From a candidate division Zixibacteria bacterium SM23_81 (GTDB lineage Bacteria; SM23-81), in NCBI GenBank assembly GCA_001304015.1, contig LJUY01000028.1, positions 1 through 36,018 of the forward strand: a stretch of DNA of 36,018 bases, in the 5' to 3' direction. The notes beneath the pieces were generated by a model. It had not been told where the DNA came from. It saw only the letters and a list, made by a program, of their open reading frames with translations, and did no database searches. The translations under genes were made by a program, and so were the position numbers. Position 1 is the stretch's first letter, and every line of letters begins with the position of its first letter. Shown piece after piece: positions 1-27,995 of the stretch.

Positions 1-2969
1 GTCATAAGGCCGGTATGAATGAGAATGGTTCCGACAAACTCTACATCGCCAATGGTCCCGATACCAGCGATGTGCTCATTTATGGGGATTTTTCCACCGG
101 CAATGTGGGCTTGGGGACGCTGGATGCTTCATCTAAGCTGGATGTCAGCGGAGATATCAACGCCGATTCGGCCTATAAGATAGGAGGACACACTGTTCTA
201 TCAACCTCGGGCACCACGACTCTCCTCGTGGGCGTCGACGCCGGAGGGAACAATACCGGCAGTTATGTGACCTTTGTGGGTGATAGCGCCGGCTATAACA
301 ACCAGGGCGTTTGGAACACCTTTTTGGGATATCAAGCTGGTTACGCCAACACCACAGGATCTTCCAACACGTTCTTGGGAATAGGGACTGGCGGTTTCAA
401 CACAGAAGGTGAGATGAATACTTATGTGGGCCATCTTGCTGGGACTCATAATGTCTTGGGCACTGGCAACGTCTTCATCGGCCATGAGGCCGGGTATCGT
501 GAAGAAGGTTCCAATAAGCTCTACATAGCCAATAGCCGAGATACCAGCCGTGTATTGATCTATGGTGATTTTTCCAACGGAAATGTGGGTCTTGGAACGT
601 TGAGCCCTGCGTACAAACTCGATGTCAACGGAGCTGTCAACGCCACCACCTACTACGGCGATGGCTCCAACCTCACCGGAATCGCCGGGATGCCGGACGG
701 CGATTGGACCATCTCGGGAAGCGATATGTATTCCGCTGTGTCGGGCAATGTGGGTGTTGGAACGGCGACACCCGGTGCCAAAGTGCACATCCTAAGCACC
801 GACGATACCACCAGGGCAGGATATTTTCTGATCGATAATGCCAGCAACGCTGTTTCCGCGCTCTATGCCGAGACCAATGGTTCTGGTTATGGCATGAGGG
901 GTAAGCACAGCACCATTGGCAACTACGGTGCCCTTGGTGGCTTCGGTTATGGTGTATTGGGGTACGGTCTGGGCGATACCAGCAGTGGAGTGTATGGTTA
1001 CAGCACGTATTCAAATGGTATGTACGGTCGAAGCATCAACAGCACAGGTGTCCGTGGTGACAGCGACAGCGGCACAGGTATATCTGGATCCAGCGCAAGT
1101 GGCTACGGCGTGTACGGCTGGAGCAGCAGCGGGTACGCAGGATATTTTGCCGGTGACGTTCGGATGACTGGGTTCGAGATGCCCACCGGAGCAAATGATG
1201 GGTATGTGTTAACCTCAGATGCATCGGGAGTGGGAAGCTGGCAACCAGCCGCTGCAGGGGCCGATAGTGACTGGACCCTCTCAGGCGACGATATGTATTC
1301 GGCCGTGTCGGGCAATGTGGGCGTTGGCACGTCCAGTCCAGAAGGCCCATTGCATGTGGATGTGAGTGGAAGCGCCACCGATCTCTATAATGCAGATCAA
1401 GCCCTTGCTATTGCAAATAATGATGTGACCCCTGGAAATATCGCCAGCTTGCTATTCTTACATTCTGATGATGAGGTATCGGGAAGAGGCGCCGCACTTA
1501 TGGCTCAGTTTACAGATCGCTCAGAGGGCTCCGAATCTGTTGATTTGCATTTTATTACCAAGAATGCTGGGATTATCACTAAAAAAATGACAATAAAGTC
1601 CAATGGTGATCTGGGCATTGGAACGACGACGCCCTCGTCCAGACTGGATGTCAGCGGAGGTATCAACGCCGATTCGGTTTATCAGATAGAAGGCAACACA
1701 GTTTTATCCACCTCAGGCACCAAGGCTCTCCTGGTGGGCGTCGACGCTGGAGGGAACAATACCGGGAGTTATGTGACCTTTGTGGGTGATAGCGCCGGAT
1801 ATAACAACCAGGGCATTTGGAACACCTTTTTAGGATATCAAGCTGGCTATGCCAACACTACAGGTTCTTCCAATACGTTCTTGGGAACAGGTACGGGCGG
1901 TTTCAACACGGACGGTGACAGCAACACATATGTTGGTCACCTGGCTGGGACCCATAACGTTTTGGGATCTGGCAATATCTTTATCGGTCATGAAGCTGGA
2001 TATCGTGAAGAAGGTTCTAACAAGCTCTACATCGCCAACAGTCGAGATACAAGCGATGTGTTGATCTATGGCGATTTTTCCACGGGAAATGTGGGCTTGG
2101 GGTCGCTGGATCCGACGGTGAAACTGGACGTGACTGGAACGGTCCAGATGGAAGGATTCAGGATGCCCACCGGTGCCATTTATGGCTATGTGATGACCGC
2201 AGATACCGGTGGAGTGGGGCGCTGGCAGCCAGCTGCCGGGGTGACTGATGGTGACTGGACGATCTCGGGTATCGACATGTATTCCGCTGTATCGGGGAAA
2301 GTAGGTATTGGAGTTACAAGTCCAAAAAAGAAGTTGCACATTAGAGAAGGGGGAGCACTCCTGGATGGAAACATCTCGGGAGTGTTGTATTTGGGAGATT
2401 ATAGCGACGCCGTTGATGAAAAGTACTTCGGTATACACTCAGATGGAGAGACGTTAAACCTAGGCCGAGCTGATGATGCATTAGCCTCACTGACATCAGC
2501 GCTAAGCATTCTCCGAAATAGTAATGTGGGCATTGGGACAATGGAGCCAGATTATAAACTCGATGTCGATGGCAATGCCGGTTTTAACGACTATATCTTT
2601 CATAATGATGACGAAGACACTTACTTCTTATTCACGACTGATAAGATAAATTTGAATGCTGGGAATGTGCCCATGATCACAGCCGAGGAGGCCACTCAGG
2701 ATGTAGTCATTATTAATGAGAGCAGCGCAGATGTCGACTTTAGAGTGAAATCTGACATCGATGCCAATACGCTATTTGTTCAAGGCAGTGATGGCCATGT
2801 GGGCATCGGAACGGGGATTCCCGCGAGAGCGTTGCATGTCAACGACGTCATGAGACTGGAGCCCAGATCATCCGCTCCATCAAGCCCATCGGAAGGTGAC
2901 ATGTACATGGACAGCACCACTCATAAGCTGATGGTCTATGACGGGAGCACCTGGCAGGCTTGTTGGTGA
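1..2969 (+). CDS. Large repeat-rich surface/fibre-like protein (5' end outside window)
   Basis: The reading frame is open to the left window edge, so the N-terminus and any signal peptide are missing; at least 988 residues are visible. The protein is built from about nine 'G-N-V-G-(I/L)-G-T-x-x-P-x-x-K-L-D-V-x-G' units, as in bacterial fibre and surface proteins. Between them lie Gly/Asn/Thr-rich blocks with 'NTFxG..AG..N' repeats that suggest a beta-roll or beta-helix. A ~160-residue cassette (nt ~138-620) recurs at nt ~1644-2125, and the tail of another copy lies at nt 3-150. The end (nt ~2850-2966) is a compact module rich in Ser/Pro/Gly and ending in Trp-Gln-Ala-Cys-Trp. I see no beta-barrel anchor, S74 chaperone or sorting signal. 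It is probably exported by analogy with the two downstream paralogues, which have signal peptides. The exact function is unknown. Confidence 0.85.
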   Translation, partial: HKAGMNENGSDKLYIANGPDTSDVLIYGDFSTGNVGLGTLDASSKLDVSGDINADSAYKIGGHTVLSTSGTTTLLVGVDAGGNNTGSYVTFVGDSAGYNNQGVWNTFLGYQAGYANTTGSSNTFLGIGTGGFNTEGEMNTYVGHLAGTHNVLGTGNVFIGHEAGYREEGSNKLYIANSRDTSRVLIYGDFSNGNVGLGTLSPAYKLDVNGAVNATTYYGDGSNLTGIAGMPDGDWTISGSDMYSAVSGNVGVGTATPGAKVHILSTDDTTRAGYFLIDNASNAVSALYAETNGSGYGMRGKHSTIGNYGALGGFGYGVLGYGLGDTSSGVYGYSTYSNGMYGRSINSTGVRGDSDSGTGISGSSASGYGVYGWSSSGYAGYFAGDVRMTGFEMPTGANDGYVLTSDASGVGSWQPAAAGADSDWTLSGDDMYSAVSGNVGVGTSSPEGPLHVDVSGSATDLYNADQALAIANNDVTPGNIASLLFLHSDDEVSGRGAALMAQFTDRSEGSESVDLHFITKNAGIITKKMTIKSNGDLGIGTTTPSSRLDVSGGINADSVYQIEGNTVLSTSGTKALLVGVDAGGNNTGSYVTFVGDSAGYNNQGIWNTFLGYQAGYANTTGSSNTFLGTGTGGFNTDGDSNTYVGHLAGTHNVLGSGNIFIGHEAGYREEGSNKLYIANSRDTSDVLIYGDFSTGNVGLGSLDPTVKLDVTGTVQMEGFRMPTGAIYGYVMTADTGGVGRWQPAAGVTDGDWTISGIDMYSAVSGKVGIGVTSPKKKLHIREGGALLDGNISGVLYLGDYSDAVDEKYFGIHSDGETLNLGRADDALASLTSALSILRNSNVGIGTMEPDYKLDVDGNAGFNDYIFHNDDEDTYFLFTTDKINLNAGNVPMITAEEATQDVVIINESSADVDFRVKSDIDANTLFVQGSDGHVGIGTGIPARALHVNDVMRLEPRSSAPSSPSEGDMYMDSTTHKLMVYDGSTWQACW
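138..620 (+). repeat. Intragenic cassette repeat, copy A
   Basis: This stretch encodes a ~160-residue module that starts at 'LDVSG', contains the 'LLVGVDAGGNNTG' and 'NTFLGYQAGYANTTGSSNTF' blocks, and ends at 'YGDFSNGNVGLGT'. It is closely repeated about 1506 bp downstream. By eye most codons match, and differences are mostly single bases. A more diverged version is in the next gene (nt ~3890-4440). The tail of a further copy begins the window. Confidence 0.85.
1644..2125 (+). repeat. Intragenic cassette repeat, copy B
   Basis: This is the second copy of the ~160-residue cassette, aligned to copy A at an offset of about 1506 bp. The blocks 'SYVTFVGDSAGYNNQG' and 'GHEAGYREEGSNKLYIANSR' are the same in both copies. 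It reads in frame, so the duplication lengthened the protein without breaking it. Confidence 0.85.
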
Positions 2970-3057
2970 TACAGCAGCCAGAATGTAAGCAGCTAAAATT
3001 GGCATTGCACTGTGCTAATTGCTGTTTTATAGGCAGGTGATGACCGTATGATTTTTG

Positions 3058-3084
3058 CTTTCTCGGCTCAGATAGCTGAGAGAG
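3058..3084 (+). promoter_or_regulatory. 27-nt hairpin element upstream of second surface gene
   Basis: CTTTCTC, ten bases, then GCTGAGAGAG. The arms at 3060-3068 and 3074-3082 can form a nine-pair stem with a five-base loop. An element of identical length and layout (CTTTCTC-N10-GCTGAGAAAG) lies at 6028-6054 before the next surface gene. No U-tract follows, so it is not a standard intrinsic terminator. A leader-RNA or regulatory role is inference. Confidence 0.4.
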
Positions 3085-3152
3085 TATTCCTATAACTTCA
3101 GGAACCACAGCTTAAACCTTTTTAAAAACCATAACTCAAAAGGGGGTGCGCC

Positions 3153-3650
3153 ATGAGAGTGACCGCTTTCGTGCTCTTGCTGTCGTTGGTTTTTTTGTCG
3201 TTTGCAGCCCTGGCTGGGGGCTCAATCACACCGGCGGCCCGGACAGAAGCATCTAGCGTGATTCTGGCCGATAATCATGCATCCAGAGGAGCGAAGACAG
3301 AAGTGCCAGGCCTGATGAGCTTTCAGGGTACGTTGACAGATGAACATGGGGTGGCTATGGACACGACGGTTTCCATGGCCTTTTCAATTTATACCGATTC
3401 TACAGGGGGATCCTTAATATGGACGGAGACACAAACAGCGGTGGTGGTGAGCAGTGGGATGTTCAACGTTCTTTTGGGAAGAGTGAACAGCATCTCGGAC
3501 ACGGTCTTCAAAGATCCTGAGCGCTGGATTGGAGTGCAGGTGGGAGCTGATCCTGATATCGGGCAATGTGGGCATTGGAATGGCCAGCCCTCAGGCGAAG
3601 TTACACGTCGACGGGACTATGAGATTGGGGGCTGGAGCTGCTCGGTATGA
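3153..3650 (+). CDS. N-terminal fragment of frameshifted surface protein
   Basis: The start is ATG behind AAAGGGGGTG. Residues 1-22 form a clear Sec signal peptide (MRVTAF, hydrophobic core, then Ala-Gly-Gly). Next comes a ~90-residue domain with 'GLMSFQGTLTDEHG', 'SMAFSIYTDSTGG' and 'WIGVQVGADP'. This is the N-terminal domain often met in large repeat proteins ('YQG.LTD..G.....T...FS.Y'). After 'GADPD' at nt ~3556 the frame turns into unrelated sequence and stops at 3650. The natural continuation (SGNVGIGMASPQAKLHVDG) lies in the +1 frame from nt ~3559. Together with 3529-5829 this is one broken gene, unless the break is an assembly or sequencing error. Confidence 0.8.
   Translation: MRVTAFVLLLSLVFLSFAALAGGSITPAARTEASSVILADNHASRGAKTEVPGLMSFQGTLTDEHGVAMDTTVSMAFSIYTDSTGGSLIWTETQTAVVVSSGMFNVLLGRVNSISDTVFKDPERWIGVQVGADPDIGQCGHWNGQPSGEVTRRRDYEIGGWSCSV
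3374..3556 (+). repeat. 183-bp near-identical tract shared with downstream paralogue (copy 1)
   Basis: This tract matches 6483-6665 with a single difference (C at 3452, T at 6561), while flanking sequence in the same genes is clearly diverged. It covers the second half of the N-terminal domain. It ends exactly at TCCTGA, where the reading frame of this gene is lost. Recent gene conversion or recombination is the simplest reading. Confidence 0.9.
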
Positions 3651-5829
3651 GATTCGGGAAGTCACTCCCTGGAGTGGTGGAGGTTGGCAGAATTACATCG
3701 ATTATGGTGGCATCGGCATTGGCAGCAATGATGGCAACCAGCGCCAGATGATTATGTTCACCGACGGCGCCGGTTCGAACAATATCTTCACCGCGGCCAC
3801 CAGCGAGAATGGAGGCAGCACCTGGGAGGCGGATTTCGTGATTCAGCAGGATGGCAACGTGGGCATCGGGACGGAGAGTCCCGCTGCTAAGCTGGATGTC
3901 AGTGGGGACGTCAACATCAATTCGGTTTATAAGATCGGTACAGAAACAGTGCTTTCCGCTCGAGGGACAGACAATATCTTCGTGGGTGCCGGGGCCGGAG
4001 AAAATAATGCCGGAGACAATGGAACCTTTGTGGGCTTCGCAGCCGGCGCAAGCAACGAAGGCAACGATAACACTTTCGTAGGCCGGGAGGTGGGTAAGAA
4101 CCACACAACAGGTTCGATAAATACGTATATAGGAACCATTGCTGGCTATTTTGACACCGAAGGACAGAACAACACCTTCATCGGAGGTGGGGCAGGCTTC
4201 TTGAACACCACCGGCAGTGAGAACACGTATGTGGGAACGTTCGCAGGCAACTCCAACCAGGTTGGTGTCGGCAATGTCTTCATCGGCTATCAAGCCGGAT
4301 ACAATGAGACCGATTCCAGCAAGCTCTACATCGCCAACGGACCGGATACCAGCGATGTGTTGATCTATGGTGATTTCTCCACCGGAAACGTTGGACTCGG
4401 GACGCTGGATCCAGCGGAGAAGCTTGATATAAATGGTACTACCCAGATGACCGGGTTCAAGATGCCCACGGGCGCTTCTGATGGGTATGTGTTGACTTCC
4501 GATGGATCTGGGGTAGGGAGTTGGCAAACCCCTTCAGCAACGGATAATGATTGGGTTCGGAGCACTCCGGACAGTGTCCTGTTTACCGCTCACCTTCTCG
4601 GCATTGCCCGGGGTGGTGCGGGTAACAGGCTGTATGGTGATGAAGTCCATACGCATATCAATTTCGGGATTACCTGTACCACCGGGACATCAGGTGAAAA
4701 TGATAGCTACTGTACTATTGGTGGGGGAATTTGCAACAGCGCCGGCGCGGGTGCGACCGTAGCCGGCGGATATCACAATGCCGCCAGAGACTACTGGGCG
4801 ACCGTGGGCGGCGGAGTTGACAACACCGCCAGCGGAGGAGTTGCGACCGTGGGTGGAGGAAATAGCAACACCGCCAGTGGAGACTATGCGATCGTGAGCG
4901 GTGGATATAACAACACCGCCGGCGGCGCCGATGCGACCGTGGGCGGCGGATATTTCAACGCCGCCAACGGAGACTGGTCTACCGTTGGCGGAGGAGCTCA
5001 GAATACCGCCAGCGGTGCCGATGCGACCGTGGGGGGAGGAGAAAGCAATACTGCTAGCGACCAATATGCGACCGTGGGTGGCGGAGCTAGTAACACCGCC
5101 AGCTACTTAGCTGCTACCGTGGGTGGTGGAGAATTCAACTTAGCCAGCGGCTACGCTGCGACCGTGGGCGGTGGATATCGCGACACTTCTGCTGCGGGCT
5201 ATAGCTTTACGGTGGGTAGTTATTCTATGGTTGCCGCCGACTATAGCAACTCGGTGGCATTTAATGGCCAGACAGCAACCGCTTCAGGGCAGACCCGGGT
5301 GGGCACCATCTCCAAGGCCTCGGGAACGTTCACCATAGACCACCCCCTTGATCCCACGGACAAGATCCTGAACCACTACTTTGTGGAATCCCCTGAGATG
5401 GTCCTCATCTACCGGGGTGCTGCCACTATTGGGGCTGACAGCCGTGCTGAGGTTCACCTGCCCGATTACTTCGATGCCCTCAATCAGAACCCCATGGTGC
5501 AGTTAACCGGGGTGGGAACCGCCGAAGTTGTCTATGTCGCCGAGAAGGTTAAAGGCAACCGCTTTGTCATAGGAGGTAAGCCAGGCACAGAGGTCTATTG
5601 GACCGTCACGGCAGAGCGTAAGGACCAGTCTGCGGAAATCACCAAGATTCTCATGCCTGTGGAGCAGCCCAAAGATGGAAGTCTAGCCGGTCGTTCCCTG
5701 GACGACGATTTCCTGGCCACCACCATGATGCAGCTTGAACGGATGGGCCAGGCAGACATGTTCGACTTCCGCACCCAGAGAGGCCGGGCGAGATATGAGG
5801 ATTCCCGACGGGCCATTGAAAACAGGTAG
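3529..5829 (+). CDS. Main body of frameshifted surface protein (YadA-head-like repeats)
   Basis: The frame opens inside the preceding fragment. Sequence from nt ~3559 (SGNVGIGMASPQAKLHVDG) is the true continuation of that protein. In order it has: NVGIG/KLDV units; a diverged copy of the 'NTFVG...AG' cassette (nt ~3890-4440); eleven tandem 15-residue repeats of type A-T-V-G-G-G-x-x-N-T-A-S-G-x-x (nt 4714-5205), resembling the beta-roll repeats of YadA-type adhesin heads; then a ~130-residue C-terminal domain with 'FTIDHPLDPTDKILNHYFVE', a pattern I know from other uncharacterised environmental surface proteins. The ATG at 3529 has no good ribosome binding site and would yield a protein without a signal peptide, so this half is probably not expressed alone in a functional form. 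No sortase, PEP-CTERM or barrel anchor is visible. Confidence 0.8.
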   Translation: MECRWELILISGNVGIGMASPQAKLHVDGTMRLGAGAARYEIREVTPWSGGGWQNYIDYGGIGIGSNDGNQRQMIMFTDGAGSNNIFTAATSENGGSTWEADFVIQQDGNVGIGTESPAAKLDVSGDVNINSVYKIGTETVLSARGTDNIFVGAGAGENNAGDNGTFVGFAAGASNEGNDNTFVGREVGKNHTTGSINTYIGTIAGYFDTEGQNNTFIGGGAGFLNTTGSENTYVGTFAGNSNQVGVGNVFIGYQAGYNETDSSKLYIANGPDTSDVLIYGDFSTGNVGLGTLDPAEKLDINGTTQMTGFKMPTGASDGYVLTSDGSGVGSWQTPSATDNDWVRSTPDSVLFTAHLLGIARGGAGNRLYGDEVHTHINFGITCTTGTSGENDSYCTIGGGICNSAGAGATVAGGYHNAARDYWATVGGGVDNTASGGVATVGGGNSNTASGDYAIVSGGYNNTAGGADATVGGGYFNAANGDWSTVGGGAQNTASGADATVGGGESNTASDQYATVGGGASNTASYLAATVGGGEFNLASGYAATVGGGYRDTSAAGYSFTVGSYSMVAADYSNSVAFNGQTATASGQTRVGTISKASGTFTIDHPLDPTDKILNHYFVESPEMVLIYRGAATIGADSRAEVHLPDYFDALNQNPMVQLTGVGTAEVVYVAEKVKGNRFVIGGKPGTEVYWTVTAERKDQSAEITKILMPVEQPKDGSLAGRSLDDDFLATTMMQLERMGQADMFDFRTQRGRARYEDSRRAIENR
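4714..5205 (+). repeat. Eleven tandem ~45-bp coding repeats
   Basis: Units begin near 4714, 4756, 4801 and then every 45 bp to 5161. The first unit is 42 bp. Each encodes (A/S)-T-V-G-G-G-x-x-N-T-A-S-G-x-x with two to four variable positions, and a degenerate twelfth unit follows. The 45-bp period keeps frame, so units can be gained or lost without disrupting the gene. The repeats are coding, not CRISPR. Confidence 0.9.
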
Positions 5830-6261
5830 CCCGTCGAGCCATACTTGAGAGAAGAAGTCAAATAATGAAATTGCTCCTGCGATCATGGCCATACAGTTCT
5901 CGATTTTCTGCTCTCAATCGGTGAGAGGTCCCATCCAGATGTCGCATGGAACCGAACTGTGAGGCTGATAGCGTCAAGATTTGGTCGTCTTCTGAATCTT
6001 CGGGCGGGTGCCGAACATCTCAGCAGACTTTCTCATGATCGAAAGCTGAGAAAGTCATCTCATCGCCTCTGGAACCGGGACTTTCGGTGCCCACCACTGC
6101 ATCGCCTGTCATACTCGATAAAATGCACAAGGAGCCAAGGACCTCATTCTATTCAACACGCCATCTTCTCAAGACCTTTGCTTCAAAGGAGCTGATTTAT
6201 GGATTCGTATGCTTCCGAGCTTGTTCATCAGTAACCTTTCACCACAAAAGGAGGAGACTCC
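5830..6261 (+). other. Intergenic region with several inverted repeats
   Basis: These 432 bp separate the second and third surface genes. There is a CTCTCA-ATCGG-TGAGAG hairpin at 5911-5927 and a perfect 10-bp inverted repeat GACTTTCTCA/TGAGAAAGTC at 6026-6035 and 6047-6056. I see no convincing gene, tRNA or U-tract terminator. Open frames here (for example 5959-6195) are basic and low in recognisable composition, and I treat them as chance. Confidence 0.5.
6026..6056 (+). promoter_or_regulatory. Perfect 10-bp inverted repeat upstream of third surface gene
   Basis: GACTTTCTCA at 6026-6035 is the exact complement of TGAGAAAGTC at 6047-6056, with an 11-base loop. Its core shares the CTTTCTC-N10-GCTGAGARAG layout with 3058-3084 upstream of the neighbouring paralogue. 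It lies about 205 bp before the start codon and has no U-tract. It could be an operator or a leader-RNA hairpin. Confidence 0.45.
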
Positions 6262-8601
6262 ATGAAAGCGACCGCTTTTATGCTAGTGCTGTCGATGTTT
6301 CTTTTATCGACAGCAGCGATGGCCGGGGAGGCCGCCACAGAGGTGACCCGGACGGATGTGTCCCATGTGATTCTGACCGACCGCCCTGTATCGAGAGGGG
6401 CCAAGGCCGATGTACCCGGCCTGATGAGCTACCAGGGCACATTAACGGATCCGAGCGGTGTGGCTCTGGATACCACCGTTGACATGGCCTTTTCAATTTA
6501 TACCGATTCTACAGGGGGATCCTTAATATGGACGGAGACACAAACAGCGGTGGTGGTGAGTAGTGGGATGTTCAACGTTCTTTTGGGAAGAGTGAACAGC
6601 ATCTCGGACACGGTCTTCAAAGATCCTGAGCGCTGGATTGGAGTGCAGGTGGGAGCTGATCCTGAGGCGGATACTGCTGAATATGCCCGCAGCGGCGGTG
6701 GTGGTGGAGGCTGGGTAGATGATGGCTCGGTGATTAGGCTGGAGACGGACACCGATTCTGTGGGCATTGGCACGACCAGCCCCAAGGCCAGATTACATGT
6801 GCAAGCCTGGGGTTCCATAGCTGTTATTGGTAGACGCGGCACTGCCGGCAACAGCGGCCATCTTGGTACTGAATTTGCGGGCGTTTATGGCTATGATCAA
6901 AAGGAAATGGAATTGGGTTATGGTGTCTGGGGCGAGTCTGAACAGGGATGGGGTGTGTTTGGCAGATGCTTGGATAACGGCAACTACGGTTTCCTGGGAG
7001 CCAGACTTTGTGGGGTAAAAGGCCTTCACCTCGATTCTGGCAACTTAGGTTACCTGGGCCTTGACTCCTGTGGTGTTTTTGGCTACAGCGAAACCAGTTA
7101 CGCGGGATACTTTGATGGCCACGTCCATGTGTCGGGAAATATGGGCATTGGGACTATGAATCCCATAAAGAAGCTCCACGTTGTTGGTGACGACACATTG
7201 GGTTCGGTGATGATCGCTCCTGACGAGAGTGGAACTGGCGATGACGCCGAGCTTGTGTTGGCAGAAGATGATGATGGCACCTACAGCATGAATGTGAAGT
7301 ACGATGGAGGGGTCAATCAACTGCAAATTTTTGGGACATCACTTTCAACACTGTATGGCCCTCATGTTGTCGTGGAGAGAAATAGTGGAGATGTCGGCAT
7401 TGGGACCACGAGTCCGGATGCCAGACTGGATGTGGCTGGCGGTCAGTGGGATTTGAACACCACGGAGGGTGATTTCAAGATCGGCGATGACACCTATCGG
7501 TTGAAGATGGGTGTGGCCACCGGTGGCGGCGGTGCTGGCAGCGCCGGAATTCGAGTCCAAGGAGGCCTCGAGCGCCTTATTCTGGGAGCGGGTTCTTCCG
7601 AGGTGTTGGAGATTGACACAAGTGGTACAGTTAAAATCGGTTCGAGTTCACAAGATGGCTATGTTCATTTATATAGTAACGGTACTCCAGATCCGGTAGT
7701 TCGTCTTGGGGACTCCATGTCGGGGGCGGCCGAGGGATCGGTCCGTCTCTATACTCCTTCTGGTGAATGTCATACTTCACTCCTGCCTGTTCTCGCTGGG
7801 GGGAGTGAAGCAGGATCTATAGTTTTAAATGGATATGGCGATTTCGGTCCTCCTGATGGCATTTGGCTAATGGGCGACGATCTTTCTGGTGAACCGGGAC
7901 TTGATATCTTTGGCTCGAGTCGGTTAGTGCGGTTTCGGATGAGCGAGACGGGGACTTCGTCCGTTGTCTTGCCCAGCGATGCCATCTCGGCAAACGAGAT
8001 GTTTGATGAGCCGGGCGTGGCCAGCCATACGGGTTCTGGCATAACATTAACCGGGGGAGTTGAGGTGCAGCTTTCCCGCAGCATCACCTGTCCCACAGAT
8101 GGTTACGTGCTGGTTATGGGCACCTGCGAAGTGTCGGTGACTCATTCCACCGGCACCATAAGCAATGCTTATTTTGGTGTCTCGGATGTGAGCACCTCTT
8201 TCCCTACAAACCAGGATATCGAGCTGAGACTGAGCTCGGCCGCGCCCTCAGCGAGTTACGATTTTCCTGTGACGGTCCATGGGCTTTTCCAGGTCGGCCC
8301 CGGTACGAACACTTTTTACTTCCTGGCACAGGAGGTCTCTGGAGCTTTCATTACCTTAGACACGCAGCTTTCATTAGTTTTCGTGCCGACGGCCTACGGG
8401 ACTGTATCTCCTACCCTTGCGGTGGAGCCAAGCATTCCGGATGAACAGGCCCAGCGAGATTTACCTCTAACACCAGCGGATATTTCTGTTGAGCAAGCTG
8501 AGGCAGCGGCTTTCAATGCTGCCCGGATCGGGCGTGAACTGGCTGCCATGCGAGCCGAGCTGGAGAGCTTGAAGCGGGAGGTGGAGAATCGCAATCGGTA
8601 G
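6262..8601 (+). CDS. Large exported repeat protein with C-terminal coiled coil
   Basis: ATG follows AAAGGAGGAG. Residues 1-22 are a Sec signal peptide (MKATAF...AAMAG). Residues ~50-135 repeat the N-terminal 'GLMSYQGTLTD...WIGVQVGADP' domain of the upstream paralogue, here intact and followed by 'EADTAEYA'. A Gly run and NVGIGT/KLHV-type units follow, with Gly-rich blocks between ('GVFGYSETSYAGYF'). Residues ~605-720 form a non-repetitive domain ('VQLSRSITCPTDGYVLVMGT') that could be a C1q/TNF-like jelly roll; this is a guess from the pattern. The last ~35 residues are a charged heptad-like coiled coil (RIGRELAAMRAELESLKREV). It is probably a trimeric or fibrous cell-surface protein. Partner and ligand are unknown. 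Confidence 0.85.
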   Translation: MKATAFMLVLSMFLLSTAAMAGEAATEVTRTDVSHVILTDRPVSRGAKADVPGLMSYQGTLTDPSGVALDTTVDMAFSIYTDSTGGSLIWTETQTAVVVSSGMFNVLLGRVNSISDTVFKDPERWIGVQVGADPEADTAEYARSGGGGGGWVDDGSVIRLETDTDSVGIGTTSPKARLHVQAWGSIAVIGRRGTAGNSGHLGTEFAGVYGYDQKEMELGYGVWGESEQGWGVFGRCLDNGNYGFLGARLCGVKGLHLDSGNLGYLGLDSCGVFGYSETSYAGYFDGHVHVSGNMGIGTMNPIKKLHVVGDDTLGSVMIAPDESGTGDDAELVLAEDDDGTYSMNVKYDGGVNQLQIFGTSLSTLYGPHVVVERNSGDVGIGTTSPDARLDVAGGQWDLNTTEGDFKIGDDTYRLKMGVATGGGGAGSAGIRVQGGLERLILGAGSSEVLEIDTSGTVKIGSSSQDGYVHLYSNGTPDPVVRLGDSMSGAAEGSVRLYTPSGECHTSLLPVLAGGSEAGSIVLNGYGDFGPPDGIWLMGDDLSGEPGLDIFGSSRLVRFRMSETGTSSVVLPSDAISANEMFDEPGVASHTGSGITLTGGVEVQLSRSITCPTDGYVLVMGTCEVSVTHSTGTISNAYFGVSDVSTSFPTNQDIELRLSSAAPSASYDFPVTVHGLFQVGPGTNTFYFLAQEVSGAFITLDTQLSLVFVPTAYGTVSPTLAVEPSIPDEQAQRDLPLTPADISVEQAEAAAFNAARIGRELAAMRAELESLKREVENRNR
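6483..6665 (+). repeat. 183-bp near-identical tract (copy 2)
   Basis: This is the partner of 3374-3556, with one mismatch in 183 bp. Here the frame continues normally past the end of the tract (GADPEADTAEYA), so this copy shows what the upstream gene probably looked like before its break. Confidence 0.9.
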
Positions 8602-20308: not shown

Positions 20309-20593
20309 ATGAAGGTGAAACCCCTTGCTGATCGCGTGTTGGTGAAGCCCCAGGAGGAGGAAGAGGTGAAGAAGGGTGGCATCATCATCCCCGACACCGC
20401 CAAGGAGAAACCTCAACAGGGTAAGGTGGTGGCTGTGGGTCCGGGAAAGCTCACCGAAACGGGCGAAAAGGTCACCCCAGAGGTGAAAAAAGGCGATATG
20501 ATTCTCTATGGCAAGTACTCGGGCACCGAGGTGACCATCGATGGGGAAGAGTACCTTATTATGCGCGAGAGCGACATTTTGGCAGTGATTTGA
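20309..20593 (+). CDS. groES: Co-chaperonin GroES
   Basis: 94 residues, ATG behind AAAGGAGGT. It forms the seven-fold lid of the GroEL chamber. The start '[14 protein letters not shown]', the mobile-loop region around '[20 protein letters not shown]' (~23-42) that contacts GroEL, and the C-terminal '[16 protein letters not shown]' are all typical. It is first in the groESL operon behind the CIRCE-controlled promoter with a ~105-nt leader, and is followed 54 bp later by groEL. Confidence 0.97.
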
Positions 20594-22267
<1,674 letters not shown>

Positions 22268-22363: not shown

Positions 22364-22392
22364 TTGACAACATCGCCCACTTATTGTATTTT
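22364..22392 (+). promoter_or_regulatory. Promoter of the aminotransferase-like gene
   Basis: TTGACA at 22364-22369, a 17-bp spacer and TATTTT at 22387-22392. It opens a new transcript right after the groEL terminator and could also serve folB, folK and the deoxynucleoside kinase. Confidence 0.75.
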
Positions 22393-22466: not shown

Positions 22467-23687
22467 ATGCGAAAGACGATCGTTATCGAACGGGCTGAAA
22501 GGCTGCACCAGATCCCCGCTGATTTGTTCTTGGGTCTGAAGCGCAAGGCCCAGAGGGCGGTCCAGAGGGGTGTGGATGTGATCGATCTGAGCTTGGGCAA
22601 TCCTGATGAGTCTCCTTCTCAGGAGGTTGTGGATGAGCTCTGTGGGGCGGCCAGAGAGGTTGAATATAACCGGTATCTTATGGGCTATGGCCTGGAGCAG
22701 TTTCGGCGCAAAGTGGCGGAGTTCTTTGAGGCTCGGTTCGAGGTCTCTGTCAATCCAGAGTTAGAAGTGTTGCCCTTGCAGGGCGTCTGGGAGGGGCTAT
22801 GGGGGCTTCCCTTGGCCTTTGTCAATTCTGGCGAGATGGTGCTTCTCCCAGATCCGTGCTATCCCCTCTATCGCGCTGGGGCCATTCTGGCCGGCGCCCG
22901 GGTAGAGACCATGCCGCTGCTGGAAAGGAACGACTTTCTCCCCAATCTGCAGCACATTCCCGAGGCTGTGGCTCGCAGCGCCAAGTTGCTTTTCCTCAAC
23001 TATCCGAACAATCCCACCACCGCCGTGGCCGATCTCTCCTTCTTCCAGGAGGTGGTGGATTTCGCTCGGACTCATAACATAGCTGTGGTGCACGATGCCA
23101 CTTACTCTCAGATGACCTACGACGACTATCTGGCTCCCAGCTTCTTGCAGGCTCACGGGGCCAAAAAAGTGGGCCTCGAGCTTCATTCCTTTTCCATGAC
23201 CCATAACCTGGGGGGATGGCGTTTGGGCTTCGCGGTGGGCAACCGGCAGCTCATCTCCGGGCTAGCAGCTGTTCGTGGTTGCGGCTTTGTGGGTCCCTCC
23301 CCAGCTCTCCAACGGGCGGTGTGTAAGGCTCTCTGCTTGACGCGCACACAGAAGGATCGCTATGCGGATCGACGAAACATGGCCGTCCAGGGACTTCGCG
23401 ACCTGGGATTCAAACTATCTCGTCCCAAGGCCACCCCTTTTTTGTGGGTGCGAGTGCCAGGTCGCTATACTTCTCTGGGTTTTTCCCGCCGTCTGTTCCG
23501 TCGCAGCGGGATTTTGGTGACTCCGGGCAGTGGATTTGGTGAACGGGGGGAGGGCTTTGTGAGAATTTCTCTGACCGTATCTGAGGAGCGCCTCCGGTTG
23601 GCCCTGAAGAGGATGACAGCACATGCCTTCATCTGGCTGCGAAAACGCCGGACGCTGGAGAGTCAAGGAGCACAGCGCTCGTTATGA
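22467..23687 (+). CDS. Class I/II aminotransferase-like protein lacking the PLP lysine
   Basis: 406 residues, fold type I, closest in pattern to LL-diaminopimelate or alanine aminotransferases (DapL/AlaC type): 'IDLSLGNPDESPS', 'LPDPCYPLYRAGA', 'LNYPNNPTTAVAD', Asp210 and Tyr213 in 'VVHDATYSQMTYDDY', and the C-terminal arginine in 'FVRISL'. In the PLP-attachment motif, normally S-x-S-K-x-x-N-x-x-G-W-R, this gene reads S-F-S-M-T-H-N-L-G-G-W-R. Met244 (codon ATG at 23196-23198) replaces the catalytic lysine. The usual G-S-K/T-E-G phosphate-site motif is also altered to 'QGVWEG'. The rest is full length and in frame. It may be a pseudoenzyme or an enzyme with another role, or a single-base error (AAG to ATG). 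Calling it dapL would overstate the evidence. Confidence 0.85.
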   Translation: MRKTIVIERAERLHQIPADLFLGLKRKAQRAVQRGVDVIDLSLGNPDESPSQEVVDELCGAAREVEYNRYLMGYGLEQFRRKVAEFFEARFEVSVNPELEVLPLQGVWEGLWGLPLAFVNSGEMVLLPDPCYPLYRAGAILAGARVETMPLLERNDFLPNLQHIPEAVARSAKLLFLNYPNNPTTAVADLSFFQEVVDFARTHNIAVVHDATYSQMTYDDYLAPSFLQAHGAKKVGLELHSFSMTHNLGGWRLGFAVGNRQLISGLAAVRGCGFVGPSPALQRAVCKALCLTRTQKDRYADRRNMAVQGLRDLGFKLSRPKATPFLWVRVPGRYTSLGFSRRLFRRSGILVTPGSGFGERGEGFVRISLTVSEERLRLALKRMTAHAFIWLRKRRTLESQGAQRSL

Positions 23688-23711
23688 GCTGAGATTTGTC
23701 AAAGGCCGGTG

Positions 23712-24074
23712 ATGGCACTTATGGGCGTCATTCGCTTACAGAACATGACCTTTTATGCCCATCATGGAGTGAAGGCGGCAGAGCGAGAGCTAGGGCAGGT
23801 TTTTCAGGTAGATGTGGAGATCTCCCTGGACCTGAGCAGAGCTGTTTCCTCAGATGACCTCTCACAGACAATCGATTATGGAGAACTCTACGAGCTGGTG
23901 GAGGAGATAGTGCTGGAGCGAGAATTCTCACTCCTGGAGACCCTGGCTCAGGCCATCCTCACTGCAATTGCTCGGCGATACCGTTTGGAACAAGGGCTGG
24001 TGAGGGTACGCAAGCCTCATCCGCCCCTTCCAGGCAAACTGGATTGTGTGGAGGTGGAGCTTTCCACAGATTGA
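23712..24074 (+). CDS. folB: Dihydroneopterin aldolase
   Basis: 120 residues from ATG 23712, with AAAGG 6 nt upstream; a GTG three bases earlier is less likely. FolB cleaves dihydroneopterin to 6-hydroxymethyl-dihydropterin and glycolaldehyde in folate synthesis. It has the tunnelling fold with 'MTFYAHHGVKAAERELGQ' (~12-29), which holds the substrate-binding glutamate, 'TIDYGELYELV', 'FSLLETLAQAI' with the conserved glutamate, and the catalytic lysine in 'VRKPHPPLPG'. It sits directly before folK, which takes its product. Confidence 0.95.
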   Translation: MALMGVIRLQNMTFYAHHGVKAAERELGQVFQVDVEISLDLSRAVSSDDLSQTIDYGELYELVEEIVLEREFSLLETLAQAILTAIARRYRLEQGLVRVRKPHPPLPGKLDCVEVELSTD

Positions 24075-24099: not shown

Positions 24100-24609
24100 A
24101 TGGCTATAGCCTTTATAGGCCTGGGATCAAACCTGGGAATTCGCCAAGTCCAGATACAAGATGCTTTGGATCACCTCCAGCAAGATAGGAAGGTGAAGAT
24201 TTTGCGCCGATCTTCACTCTATGAGACGGAGCCGGTGGGATTTCGGGATCAGCCCCCTTTTTTGAACGCCGTGATTGAGATCTCCACCCAACACTCTCCC
24301 CAGCGTCTGCTGGCCTGTTTGCAGTCCATCGAGAGACGTATGGGGCGCCAGAGGATCTTCCCCTGGGGGCCCCGGCTCATCGATCTGGATCTGTTGCTCT
24401 ACGAGGATCAACTTGTGAATCAGCCGGATTTGATAGTCCCGCATCCCGAGTTGGCGAAAAGGGCTTTCGTGCTAGTGCCCCTGGTGGAGATTGCCCCGTC
24501 CACGGTTCATCCCCTGTTGGACAAGACCGTGGCCGAATTGTTGGCCTGCCTTGGCGATGCCACAGGGATTCGACGTTACCGCTCCCGGGAGAAATTCAAA
24601 CATGGTTGA
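24100..24609 (+). CDS. folK: 2-amino-4-hydroxy-6-hydroxymethyldihydropteridine pyrophosphokinase
   Basis: 169 residues from ATG 24100, chosen for AAGGAG 8 nt upstream and because the longer frame overlaps folB. FolK transfers pyrophosphate from ATP to the FolB product. Motifs: 'IGLGSNLG' at the start, 'SSLYETEPVGFRDQPPFLNA', 'ERRMGRQR', and the metal-binding aspartates in 'WGPRLIDLDLLLY' (~88-100), then 'VPHPELAKRAFVLVPL'. Its last eight bases overlap the start of the kinase gene (ATGGTTGA). Confidence 0.96.
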   Translation: MAIAFIGLGSNLGIRQVQIQDALDHLQQDRKVKILRRSSLYETEPVGFRDQPPFLNAVIEISTQHSPQRLLACLQSIERRMGRQRIFPWGPRLIDLDLLLYEDQLVNQPDLIVPHPELAKRAFVLVPLVEIAPSTVHPLLDKTVAELLACLGDATGIRRYRSREKFKHG

Positions 24610-25240
24610 GGCTAACTACATCGTCGTCGAGGGCGTCATCGGCGTCGGCAAGACAAGCTTAGCTAAGATCTTGGCTGAAAAGATCAACGCCCGCGTGGTT
24701 CTGGAGGAGGTGGAGGAAAATCCCTTTCTGGAGGATTTTTACCGAGATCCCGCTCGATTCGCCTTTCAGGTTCAGATCTTCTTCCTCCTGAGCCGATATC
24801 GCCAGCAAATGGAGTTTCCTCAACAGGATTTATTTCAGCAGAGGACTGTCAGCGATTACCTGTTCGATAAGGACAAGATCTTCGCCTATATCAACCTCAA
24901 CGAAAAGGAGCTCAGTCTCTACGAACGGCTGTGGTCATTCCTGTATAAAGATGTCCCCAGGCCGGACTTGGTCATTTATCTCCAGGCCAATACCGAGACC
25001 CTGATGCACCGTATCAGAGAGAGAAACCGCTCATACGAGCAGAACATCTCCAACGAGTATATCCAGCGCCTTAACGAAGCCTATAACTATTTTTTCTTTC
25101 ACTACACCGAATCCCCTCTTTTAGTCGTTAACACAGCCAAGATCGACTTCGTACACAATCCCGATGACTTGGAGGATCTTCTGGAGCAGATTCGGAGACC
25201 CCACCTGGGCACCAGGTATTACGTGCCCATGAGAGAATAA
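24602..25240 (+). CDS. Deoxynucleoside kinase family protein
   Basis: 212 residues from ATG 24602, overlapping the folK stop by 8 nt, so translation is coupled. P-loop 'GVIGVGKTSL' (11-20), 'EEVEENPFLEDFYRDP' (~35-50), 'FQVQIFFLLSRYRQQ', and 'RIRERNRSYEQNIS', the usual lid arginines. The fold matches bacterial dAK/dGK enzymes that phosphorylate deoxyadenosine or deoxyguanosine in salvage. In place of the usual D-R-S after the central strand it has 'QQRTVSDYLFDKDKIFA', common in this subfamily. The order folB-folK-deoxynucleoside kinase recurs in several bacterial groups. The exact nucleoside is not predictable here. Confidence 0.9.
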   Translation: MVEANYIVVEGVIGVGKTSLAKILAEKINARVVLEEVEENPFLEDFYRDPARFAFQVQIFFLLSRYRQQMEFPQQDLFQQRTVSDYLFDKDKIFAYINLNEKELSLYERLWSFLYKDVPRPDLVIYLQANTETLMHRIRERNRSYEQNISNEYIQRLNEAYNYFFFHYTESPLLVVNTAKIDFVHNPDDLEDLLEQIRRPHLGTRYYVPMRE

Positions 25241-25563: not shown

Positions 25564-26361
25564 ATGAAGGATAAGGTGACCACCACGGTATTCCAACGGC
25601 TGAAGTCCCGGGAGAAGATTGCCGTTCTGACGGCCTACGATTATCTGGTGGCTCAATTGTTGGATGAGACGGGGATAGACGCTGTCTTGGTGGGCGATTC
25701 AGTTGGCATGGTTTTCTCCGGCTACCATACGACGCTGTCGGTGACTATGGACGAGATGATTTACCACACCAAGGCGGTTCGTCGCGGCGTCAAGAGAGCG
25801 CTGCTCATCGGGGACATGCCCTTCATGTCTTATCAGGCCAGTCCGGAAGATGCCGTGGCCAATGCCGGACGGTTTCTCCAAGAGGCCGGCGCCGAGGCGG
25901 TGAAGATCGAGGGTGGTCGAGAGATGGTCGAGACCATCGGTAAATTGACGCAGGTGGGAATTCCTGTGATGGGTCATTTGGGACTCACGCCACAGTCGAT
26001 TCATCAATTTGGAGGCTATCGGATACGCGGCAAATCCCAGGAGGAGGCTGCACGGCTGATCCAAGATGCTCAAGCCATAGAAGAGGCGGGTTGCTTCTCT
26101 GTGGTTTTGGAGAAGATTCCCAGCGATCTGGCCCGGGAGGTGACCCAACAGCTGAAGATCCCCACTATCGGAATCGGAGCTGGACCTCACTGCGATGGAC
26201 AGGTGCTGGTGGTTCACGACATGCTGGGGCTATTTGAGAGGTTTAAGCCTAAGTTCGTCAGGCGGTACGCACAACTGGCCGAGGAGATGCGGACAGCTTT
26301 TCGGGCCTACATCCAAGATGTCAAGAGGGGCAAATTCCCCCGTCAGGAGGAGAGTTACTAA
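25564..26361 (+). CDS. panB: 3-methyl-2-oxobutanoate hydroxymethyltransferase
   Basis: 265 residues, ATG behind GAGGAGG. PanB adds a hydroxymethyl group from methylene-tetrahydrofolate to ketoisovalerate, giving ketopantoate. TIM barrel with 'LTAYDYLVAQLLDETGID', the metal and substrate residues in 'VLVGDSVGMV', 'DMPFMSYQ', 'AEAVKIEGG', 'VMGHLGLTPQS' and 'TIGIGAGPHCDGQVLVVHDM'. It heads a pan operon with panC 27 bp downstream. The folate made by the nearby folB-folK products supplies its one-carbon donor. Confidence 0.97.
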   Translation: MKDKVTTTVFQRLKSREKIAVLTAYDYLVAQLLDETGIDAVLVGDSVGMVFSGYHTTLSVTMDEMIYHTKAVRRGVKRALLIGDMPFMSYQASPEDAVANAGRFLQEAGAEAVKIEGGREMVETIGKLTQVGIPVMGHLGLTPQSIHQFGGYRIRGKSQEEAARLIQDAQAIEEAGCFSVVLEKIPSDLAREVTQQLKIPTIGIGAGPHCDGQVLVVHDMLGLFERFKPKFVRRYAQLAEEMRTAFRAYIQDVKRGKFPRQEESY

Positions 26362-26388: not shown

Positions 26389-27234
26389 GTGAAGGTCATA
26401 AAAAAAATCCTACAGATGCAGAAGGTCGCCGATGAGGCCAGGTGTGCCGGACGGAAAGTGGGTTTTGTGCCCACCATGGGCTATTTGCATAAGGGGCACC
26501 TGAGCTTGATTCGGCAGGCTCGACAACTCAGTGAGCTCGTGGTGGTCAGCATTTTCGTCAACCCGACCCAGTTCGGTCCCCATGAGGACTATCAGAACTA
26601 TCCACGTGATCTGTCACGGGACGCGAAGCTATTGCGACAGGTAGGCTGCGATATTCTGTTCCTGCCTTCCGTTGAGGAGATGTATCCCCAGGGATACTGC
26701 TCATATGTGGACGTAGAGAACCTCACTCAGCTTCTGTGTGGAGCAAGTCGCCCCAGTCATTTTCGGGGAGTGGCTACAGTTGTGACCAAATTGTTCAACA
26801 TCGTCAAACCCCACTTGGCCGTGTTTGGTCAGAAAGACGCTCAGCAGGCCTTTGTGATAAGAAGGATGGTGACAGATTTGAACCAGGACCTGGAAATCGT
26901 GGTCGCACCCACCATCAGAGAGCCCGACGGGCTGGCCATGAGCTCCAGAAATGAATATCTCACGCCTCAGGAGCGAGCCGATGCGCTTGTTTTGTATCAG
27001 GCTCTAAAATGGGCTCATGAGCAAATCGTTGAAGGTCAGCGCAATATCGAATATCTGGTGCAGGGCATGACGAAAATGATCCAGAATAAAAAAACGGCCC
27101 AGATCGACTATATCTCCTTTGTGGACACGGAAAAACTCCATTCCCTGAAACGACTTGAGGGGGAGGTGCTCATCGCCCTTGCCGTGAAGTTCGGCCGGGC
27201 TCGCCTCATCGATAACTTGTTGATCAAGGTTTGA
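26389..27234 (+). CDS. panC: Pantothenate synthetase (pantoate-beta-alanine ligase)
   Basis: 281 residues from GTG 26389 behind GGGAAAGGG. PanC activates pantoate with ATP and joins beta-alanine to give pantothenate. Nucleotidyltransferase fold: 'VPTMGYLHKGHLSLI' with His34 and His37 of the HIGH-like motif, 'SIFVNPTQFGPHEDYQNYPR', 'HFRGVATVVTKLFNIVKPH', 'FGQKDAQQ' and the KMSKS-like 'LAMSSRNEYL'. Its stop lies 11 bases before the next start, so the three genes form one operon. Confidence 0.97.
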   Translation: MKVIKKILQMQKVADEARCAGRKVGFVPTMGYLHKGHLSLIRQARQLSELVVVSIFVNPTQFGPHEDYQNYPRDLSRDAKLLRQVGCDILFLPSVEEMYPQGYCSYVDVENLTQLLCGASRPSHFRGVATVVTKLFNIVKPHLAVFGQKDAQQAFVIRRMVTDLNQDLEIVVAPTIREPDGLAMSSRNEYLTPQERADALVLYQALKWAHEQIVEGQRNIEYLVQGMTKMIQNKKTAQIDYISFVDTEKLHSLKRLEGEVLIALAVKFGRARLIDNLLIKV

Positions 27235-27245
27235 GGGAGTGACTG

Positions 27246-27995
27246 GTGGGATCCCTGGCAACGGTTATACTCGCAGCTGGAAAGGGCAAGCGGATGAAAT
27301 CAGAGTTGGCCAAAGTGCTGCATCCTGTGTGCGGACGTCCCATGGTCTCCTATGTCATCAAAACGGCCAAGAAGCTGGGCTCACAGCAGGTCATCGTGGT
27401 GGTAGGATATCAGAGAGAGCGGGTTGTTCAGGCTCTTCAGGGAGAGGGTGTGGAGTTTGTCGTCCAGACGGAGCAGCTGGGTACAGCCCATGCTTTGTTG
27501 CAGGCGAGTCAGGCCTTAGCAGATTTCCATGGTGAGCTTCTCGTCCTGAGCGGTGACACGCCTCTGCTGTCTGAGCAAACCGTTTCTCAGCTGCTGGGTC
27601 AACATCGAGACTCAGGAGCTATGGCGACGGTGCTCACGGCTATTCTGGAGGACCCTTATGGGTATGGACGTGTCCTCCGCACTCGAGAGAATATGTTGGA
27701 GGCTATCGTGGAGGAGAAAGATGCCTCTGAGGAGCAGCGGGCCATCAAGGAGATCAATACGGGTACTTACTGTTTTCAAGCTCCCGGTATATTTGGCATC
27801 TTGAGCCAGATTAGCAGAGATAATCGTCAGGATGAATTTTACCTCACCGATGCCATCGCCATTCTGCGCCTGAGGGGATTGCCGGTGGCGGCGGTGGTGG
27901 CTGAAAATTCCTGGGAGACGCTGGGAGTGAACTCTGTGGACCAGCTCCTGATAGCAGAGGAAATCATGGCTCGGCATAAAGAACTTAAAAACTGA
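27246..27995 (+). CDS. GlmU N-domain-like nucleotidyltransferase (stand-alone)
   Basis: 249 residues from GTG 27246 with GAGGGAG upstream. Signature 'LAAGKGKRMKSELAKVLHPV' (9-27), 'QTEQLGTAHAL', 'LLVLSGDTPLL', 'EEKDASEEQRAIKEINTGTY' and 'EFYLTDAI' match the uridylyltransferase half of GlmU, which joins UTP to GlcNAc-1-phosphate. The acetyltransferase left-handed beta-helix that forms the second half of GlmU is absent. The protein ends normally after the linker helix, so it is not simply truncated by the window. It could make UDP-GlcNAc with a separate acetyltransferase or act on another sugar phosphate. Its place after panC has no obvious metabolic link. The GlmU substrate is likely but not proven. 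Confidence 0.85.
   Translation: MGSLATVILAAGKGKRMKSELAKVLHPVCGRPMVSYVIKTAKKLGSQQVIVVVGYQRERVVQALQGEGVEFVVQTEQLGTAHALLQASQALADFHGELLVLSGDTPLLSEQTVSQLLGQHRDSGAMATVLTAILEDPYGYGRVLRTRENMLEAIVEEKDASEEQRAIKEINTGTYCFQAPGIFGILSQISRDNRQDEFYLTDAIAILRLRGLPVAAVVAENSWETLGVNSVDQLLIAEEIMARHKELKN

Follow-up and report, generated by a model that had tools for sequence, protein, structure and literature searches.

The window, a stretch of 36,018 nucleotides from the candidate division Zixibacteria bacterium SM23_81, harbors a gene for an aminotransferase-like protein, here called X, which is the first gene of a folate/pantothenate cluster. The following features, all on the forward strand, make up the locus:

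22364–22392, forward strand: sigma-70-like promoter upstream of X, TTGACA-17-TATTTT (consensus match only, 10 of 12 positions)
22467–23687, forward strand: X, aminotransferase-like protein without the PLP lysine, 406 amino acids (open reading frame; PF00155, 1.2e-51)
23709–24074, forward strand: folB, dihydroneopterin aldolase (TIGR00525, 2.7e-34, above cut-off)
24103–24609, forward strand: folK, HPPK (TIGR01498, 2.3e-44, above cut-off)
24605–25240, forward strand: deoxynucleoside kinase, dNK (PF01712, 2.1e-44)
25564–26361, forward strand: panB (TIGR00222, 1.2e-113)
26389–27234, forward strand: panC (TIGR00018, 8.4e-104)
27246–27995, forward strand: GlmU-like protein, uridylyltransferase half only, 249 amino acids (profile matches; also in G001 and G002)

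The locus was compared across the four available genomes of the phylum, each in many contigs: that of the window (G000) and G001 form family f1, G002 and G003 form family f2. X is followed by folB, folK, dNK, panB and panC in all four; in three of them the contig extends further and the glmU-like half gene comes next. The acetyltransferase half of GlmU is absent from this gene and must be encoded elsewhere or replaced. Conservation around X is limited to the downstream side: groES-groEL lies directly upstream in the window (20309–22267), as does groEL in G001, and in G002 this place is taken by a putative MutS2-like gene, assigned by eye. Promoter matches were no more frequent than in shuffled sequences; the same hexamers and spacing precede X in G001, and TTGACT-17-TATGTT does so in G002. 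No riboswitch or other known RNA reached gathering scores in the window. At its start (15–8601), three long open reading frames of 984, 766 and 779 amino acids with many ‘GNVGIGTxxP’ and ‘GGGxxNTAS’-type repeats lack any Pfam match; they have the look of repetitive proteins that are secreted or located at the surface.

By descent, X belongs to the class I/II aminotransferase superfamily. It matches PF00155 over its full length, and the f2 orthologues do so with E-values of 9.4e-32 and 2.3e-30. The top NCBIfam models, again over the full length, are PRK09276 (437 bits; curated cut-off 507 bits) and TIGR03540, DapC_direct (434.3 bits; cut-off 593.25 bits). X stays under both cut-offs and is thus not identified as an LL-diaminopimelate (LL-DAP) aminotransferase by TIGR03540. 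As the preliminary description had stated, the gene is full-length, with a frame open over 406 codons.

Around residue 244, X reads HSFS-M-THNLGGWRLGFA, and Met244 aligns with the Schiff-base lysine of the solved relatives 2x5d, BacF (6l1l) and 2dou, which read SKSYNMAGWR, SKTFNMAGWR and SKSYNLAGFR, respectively. The lysine required of a functional PLP-dependent aminotransferase is therefore missing. The ATG at 23196–23198 had previously been read as a methionine codon in place of this lysine; the reading frame, the codon and the alignment to solved relatives agree with that call in coordinates and reading. No realignment brings a lysine into the site, and a shift to a nearby residue is ruled out by the alignment. 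The lysine has not been relocated either, since the only lysines invariant across the four orthologues, K173 and K233, are both already part of the canonical consensus.

The same column was followed through the orthologues. Open, full-length frames for X are found in all four genomes of the phylum, with methionine at residue 244 in G000 and G001 and proline in G002 and G003; among aligned homologues from other phyla, lysine occupies this column in 55 of 55. The close relative in G001, 75% identical to X, carries methionine and not lysine in the segment SLSMDYNLAGWR and has a GVWEG motif in common with the window protein. The f2 orthologues are 45% and 41% identical to X, and their SLSKTxNMxGWRxGFA segment is rewritten to A-L/I-T/A-PPGDLLSPQPGYL. 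A compensated frameshift was considered for the f2 segment and rejected, as its other frames contain no recognizable aminotransferase motif. A profile built from the four X proteins separates its members (643–764 bits) from all other proteins in 386 genomes (at most 415 bits). A maximum-likelihood tree groups them in a single clade (SH-aLRT 99), in which the branch leading to f2 is long (2.41); the tree was built by a quick method, which leaves the exact neighbors of the clade unsure. That the change reflects real divergence and not a sequencing error, as had been argued, is borne out by methionine and GVWEG in G001 and by proline in G002 and G003. The best reading of the column is that the lysine loss would have become fixed in the ancestor of the phylum.

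To describe what remains of the active site, 60 columns conserved to at least 94% among homologues outside the phylum served as a baseline. The main positions, all on the forward strand and assigned by alignment, are:

22674–22676, forward strand: Tyr70, kept in f1; the surrounding segment is deleted in G002 and G003
22782–22796, forward strand: GVWEG, residues 106–110, GSKEG in the family; GVWEG in G001, D-L-R-L/Q-G in G002 and G003
23010–23012, forward strand: Asn182 of the NPT motif, present in all four
23094–23105, forward strand: Asp210 and Tyr213, PLP ring contacts, present in all four
23196–23198, forward strand: ATG codon, Met244 at the position of the PLP Schiff-base lysine (sequence and alignment)
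23220–23222, forward strand: Arg252, the phosphate arginine, kept in G000 and G001, glutamine in G002 and G003
23274–23300, forward strand: loop 270–278, canonically K-x3-D-x3-F (100, 100 and 98% conserved), replaced in all four
23562–23564, forward strand: Arg366, C-terminal carboxylate-binding arginine, present in all four

Family f1 is altered at nine of the 60 columns, namely residues 19, 50, 108, 123, 244, 248, 270, 274 and 278. The residues contacting the PLP phosphate and ring (Tyr70, Tyr132, Asn182, Asp210, Tyr213, Ser241 and Arg252) are all present in X and in the G001 protein. Tyr70 we take to be the phosphate-binding tyrosine that fold-type-I dimers donate to the partner subunit, and loop 270–278 presumably corresponds to the loop of AspAT that carries Arg292* from the partner. 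Both this K270-D274-F278 loop and the N-terminal plug tyrosine (residue 19, assigned by position) are lost in all four proteins, losses that the preliminary description had not listed. In relatives, the plug tyrosine and a stacking tyrosine bind the distal carboxylate of the substrate (PMC4094517). In f1, then, the catalytic lysine is gone, as is part of the substrate site, while most cofactor contacts are kept. Family f2 additionally lacks Tyr70, Gly106, Tyr132, Ser241 and Arg252, the ring-stacking Tyr132 being replaced by asparagine, and retains Asn182, Asp210, Tyr213 and Arg366.

The aspartate, tyrosine and C-terminal arginine said earlier to be retained are thus present as D210, Y213 and R366, together with N182, and the phosphate-site motif said to be changed is indeed altered from GSKEG to GVWEG. 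The argument that two altered sites speak for real divergence holds in that both changes are real; its weight is lower than thought, as the GSKEG loop acts mainly via its backbone. In E. coli AlaA the equivalent Val104 and Ser105 contact the phosphate mainly through the backbone (PMC4094517), which makes the motif the weaker of the two altered sites, and S241, R252 and Y70 of the phosphate cup are retained in X. The decisive evidence for a real loss is provided by the orthologues, above all those of f2, in which the PLP pocket is dismantled. Six residues, Arg30, Glu147, Thr148, Arg154, Arg345 and Arg346, are invariant in the four X proteins and rare outside; on these four sequences they are candidates for a new function.

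An AlphaFold2 model of the window protein, computed from a five-row alignment, reached a pLDDT of 81.6 and a pTM of 0.83. Its best structural match is BacF (6l1n; Z 50.0, rmsd 2.1 over 380 residues), followed by other class I aminotransferases, so that fold type I is predicted to be intact. The titles of entries 3ei9, 3ei8 and 3eia describe the K270N and K270Q variants of Arabidopsis LL-DAP aminotransferase as crystallized with external aldimines. Going by these titles, lack of the lysine does not prevent a pocket of this fold from holding PLP adducts. By analogy, f1 could bind PLP or an adduct; for f2 this is improbable, and non-covalent PLP almost certainly cannot be held there.

The gene is under constraint. 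With YN00, dN and dS of X were 0.162 and 1.060 for the f1 pair and 0.138 and 1.054 for the f2 pair, giving ratios of ~0.15 and ~0.13 that are approximate as dS is near 1. In f1, the comparison genes gave dN and dS of 0.153 and 1.143 (argS), 0.112 and 0.899 (panB), and 0.222 and 0.834 (folK). X is maintained by purifying selection of about the strength seen for ordinary enzymes in both families. Constraint extends to the rewritten lysine segment of f2, where 10 of 27 codons differ only synonymously and 2 non-synonymously. No other gene of the cluster has diverged as far between f1 and f2 as that of X (45% identity, against 50–68% for the others), as expected if constraint had shifted on the stem and later settled. 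A decaying pseudogene is ruled out by these ratios and the intact frames in all four genomes, and the retained non-transaminase role suggested before is supported by the ratios together with retention throughout the phylum. It is also unlikely that X is kept merely for translational coupling to folB, because X is still constrained in G003, where ~400 nt separate the two. A role as beta-alanine source in place of a missing panD is ruled out by the presence of panD in all four genomes.

Lysine-bearing homologues in many other lineages also adjoin folK, folB, dNK, panB or panC, folK above all, and those sharing the folK/panB/panC neighborhood are 38–48% identical to X. Since these occupy the same slot and the closest X paralogue in the phylum genomes has only 29% identity, X is by position the orthologue of an enzyme that is presumably active, and not a spare duplicate.

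The state of the diaminopimelate pathway differs between the families. DapA, DapB, DapF and DAP dehydrogenase were not detectable in either f1 genome, and both nevertheless contain a strong LysA (489 and 487 bits). In f2, DapA adjoins DapB and DapF is present; DapE, DAP dehydrogenase and LysA were not found. The assemblies have an estimated completeness of 90–97%, but within each family both genomes lack the same genes. In f1, LL-DAP aminotransferase activity would have no pathway, and the ancestral reaction is probably without its substrate, which would explain why loss of the lysine was tolerable there. Family f2 needs some LL-DAP-forming aminotransferase, and on present evidence X would be unable to supply the step from THDP to LL-DAP. 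No lysine-bearing copy of the DapL family was seen in f2, where the class I aminotransferases scanned fell below every DapL cut-off; another aminotransferase has to be assumed for LL-DAP formation.

Taken together, X is probably a pseudo-transaminase with a non-catalytic role in binding a ligand or protein; from its sequence we infer that it lacks transaminase activity. It would have descended from a PLP-dependent class I aminotransferase of the LL-diaminopimelate-aminotransferase-like subfamily in the folK/folB/dNK/panB/panC slot. In the ancestor of the phylum, the Schiff-base lysine would have been lost together with some of the substrate site, and transaminase activity with them. The gene was retained, with its predicted fold, and is under purifying selection in f1 and f2. 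The likely function is binding of an amino acid, keto acid or partner on the old fold, possibly via the kept pocket floor N182-D210-Y213-R366 and the clade-specific E147, T148, R154, R345 and R346. Tentatively, X may be a PLP-independent regulatory or scaffold protein that senses an amino or keto acid via R366, N182, D210 and Y213 and tunes cofactor synthesis.

Some role for PLP is conceivable in f1, where Tyr132, Ser241, Arg252 and Tyr70 would allow non-covalent binding of PLP or of a PLP-amino-acid external aldimine, and residual PLP chemistry without the lysine is possible. X could then be a carrier or sensor that reports or buffers PLP or its amino-acid adducts, a reading consistent with Y70, Y132, N182, D210, Y213, S241 and R252 in f1 and, as far as the titles of 3ei8, 3ei9 and 3eia tell, with the external aldimines held by lysine variants of LL-DAP aminotransferase. 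We regard it as unlikely: f2 lacks Y70, G106, Y132, S241 and R252, so that this would not be a shared role unless f2 switched function again. As the phosphate cup is gone in f2, any function that the whole phylum shares should be independent of PLP.

Somewhat more doubtful is a heterodimer in which X, as the non-catalytic partner, would join a lysine-bearing aminotransferase from its own cell, in the manner of LCB1 and LCB2 in serine palmitoyltransferase. Human LCB1, which has no PLP lysine, functions with hLCB2a (PMC3794620), the phylum genomes do contain lysine-bearing class I aminotransferases, and f1 retains Tyr70, which serves the partner's active site in this fold. However, a close lysine-bearing paralogue was not found in these genomes (best identity 29%), and with the Tyr70 segment deleted in f2 and loop 270–278 altered in all four proteins, the residues usually provided in trans would not be offered. 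Altered catalysis with another residue as base is improbable. Fold-type-I dehydratases use a histidine as base, most cofactor contacts are kept in f1, and His246 lies near Met244 in the window protein; yet this histidine is tyrosine in G001, the four proteins share no new invariant lysine or histidine near the site, and the f2 site is dismantled. A single changed codon can be an error and many conserved residues are gone in f2, but with methionine and GVWEG recurring at 75% identity in G001, dN/dS of 0.13–0.15 and four open frames, a sequencing error or decaying pseudogene is hardly credible.

The pseudo-transaminase reading has consequences for annotation and evolution. Automatic annotation would probably label X an LL-diaminopimelate or aspartate aminotransferase and so fill a pathway hole that may be unfilled. 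The locus would preserve two stages from enzyme to non-enzyme in one slot, with the lysine lost and the pocket kept in f1, and the pocket dismantled and the protein constrained in f2. Why a dead enzyme is kept becomes testable with the two orthologues and the many lysine-bearing outgroup enzymes in a common neighborhood. Lysine-less fold-type-I proteins are already known. In the literature searched, which does not prove absence, we found neither a close case of a lysine-less bacterial class I aminotransferase nor a lysine-less positional orthologue that is fixed across a phylum in the folate/pantothenate cluster and shows pocket loss at two stages.

Among known systems, the LL-DAP aminotransferase-like subfamily (PRK09276/TIGR03540) provides the best full-length models for X, and its members share the folK/panB/panC neighborhood. 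X differs from it in scoring below the cut-offs, in lacking the PLP lysine and plug tyrosine, in its altered loop 270–278, and in the absence of the upstream DAP enzymes in f1. BacF (6l1l, 6l1n, 6l1o) and the P. aeruginosa protein 2x5d have the same fold as the X model (Z 50.0 and 44.6; ~35% identity), but carry the catalytic lysine. LCB1/SPTLC1 of serine palmitoyltransferase resembles X as a naturally occurring homologue of PLP enzymes that lacks the PLP lysine and is kept by selection (PMC3794620). It belongs to another subfamily and works with a homologous lysine-bearing subunit, whereas X has no close counterpart. The DapX of entry 9a7o we take to be PatA. This B. subtilis protein, DapX/PatA, has the class I aminotransferase fold (Z 44.0 to the X model) and was modelled in a complex with GpsB (9a7o). 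Unlike X it is an active enzyme, PatA being annotated as N-acetyl-LL-DAP aminotransferase (PMC6522883); its complex with GpsB indicates that an aminotransferase fold can offer a surface for binding.
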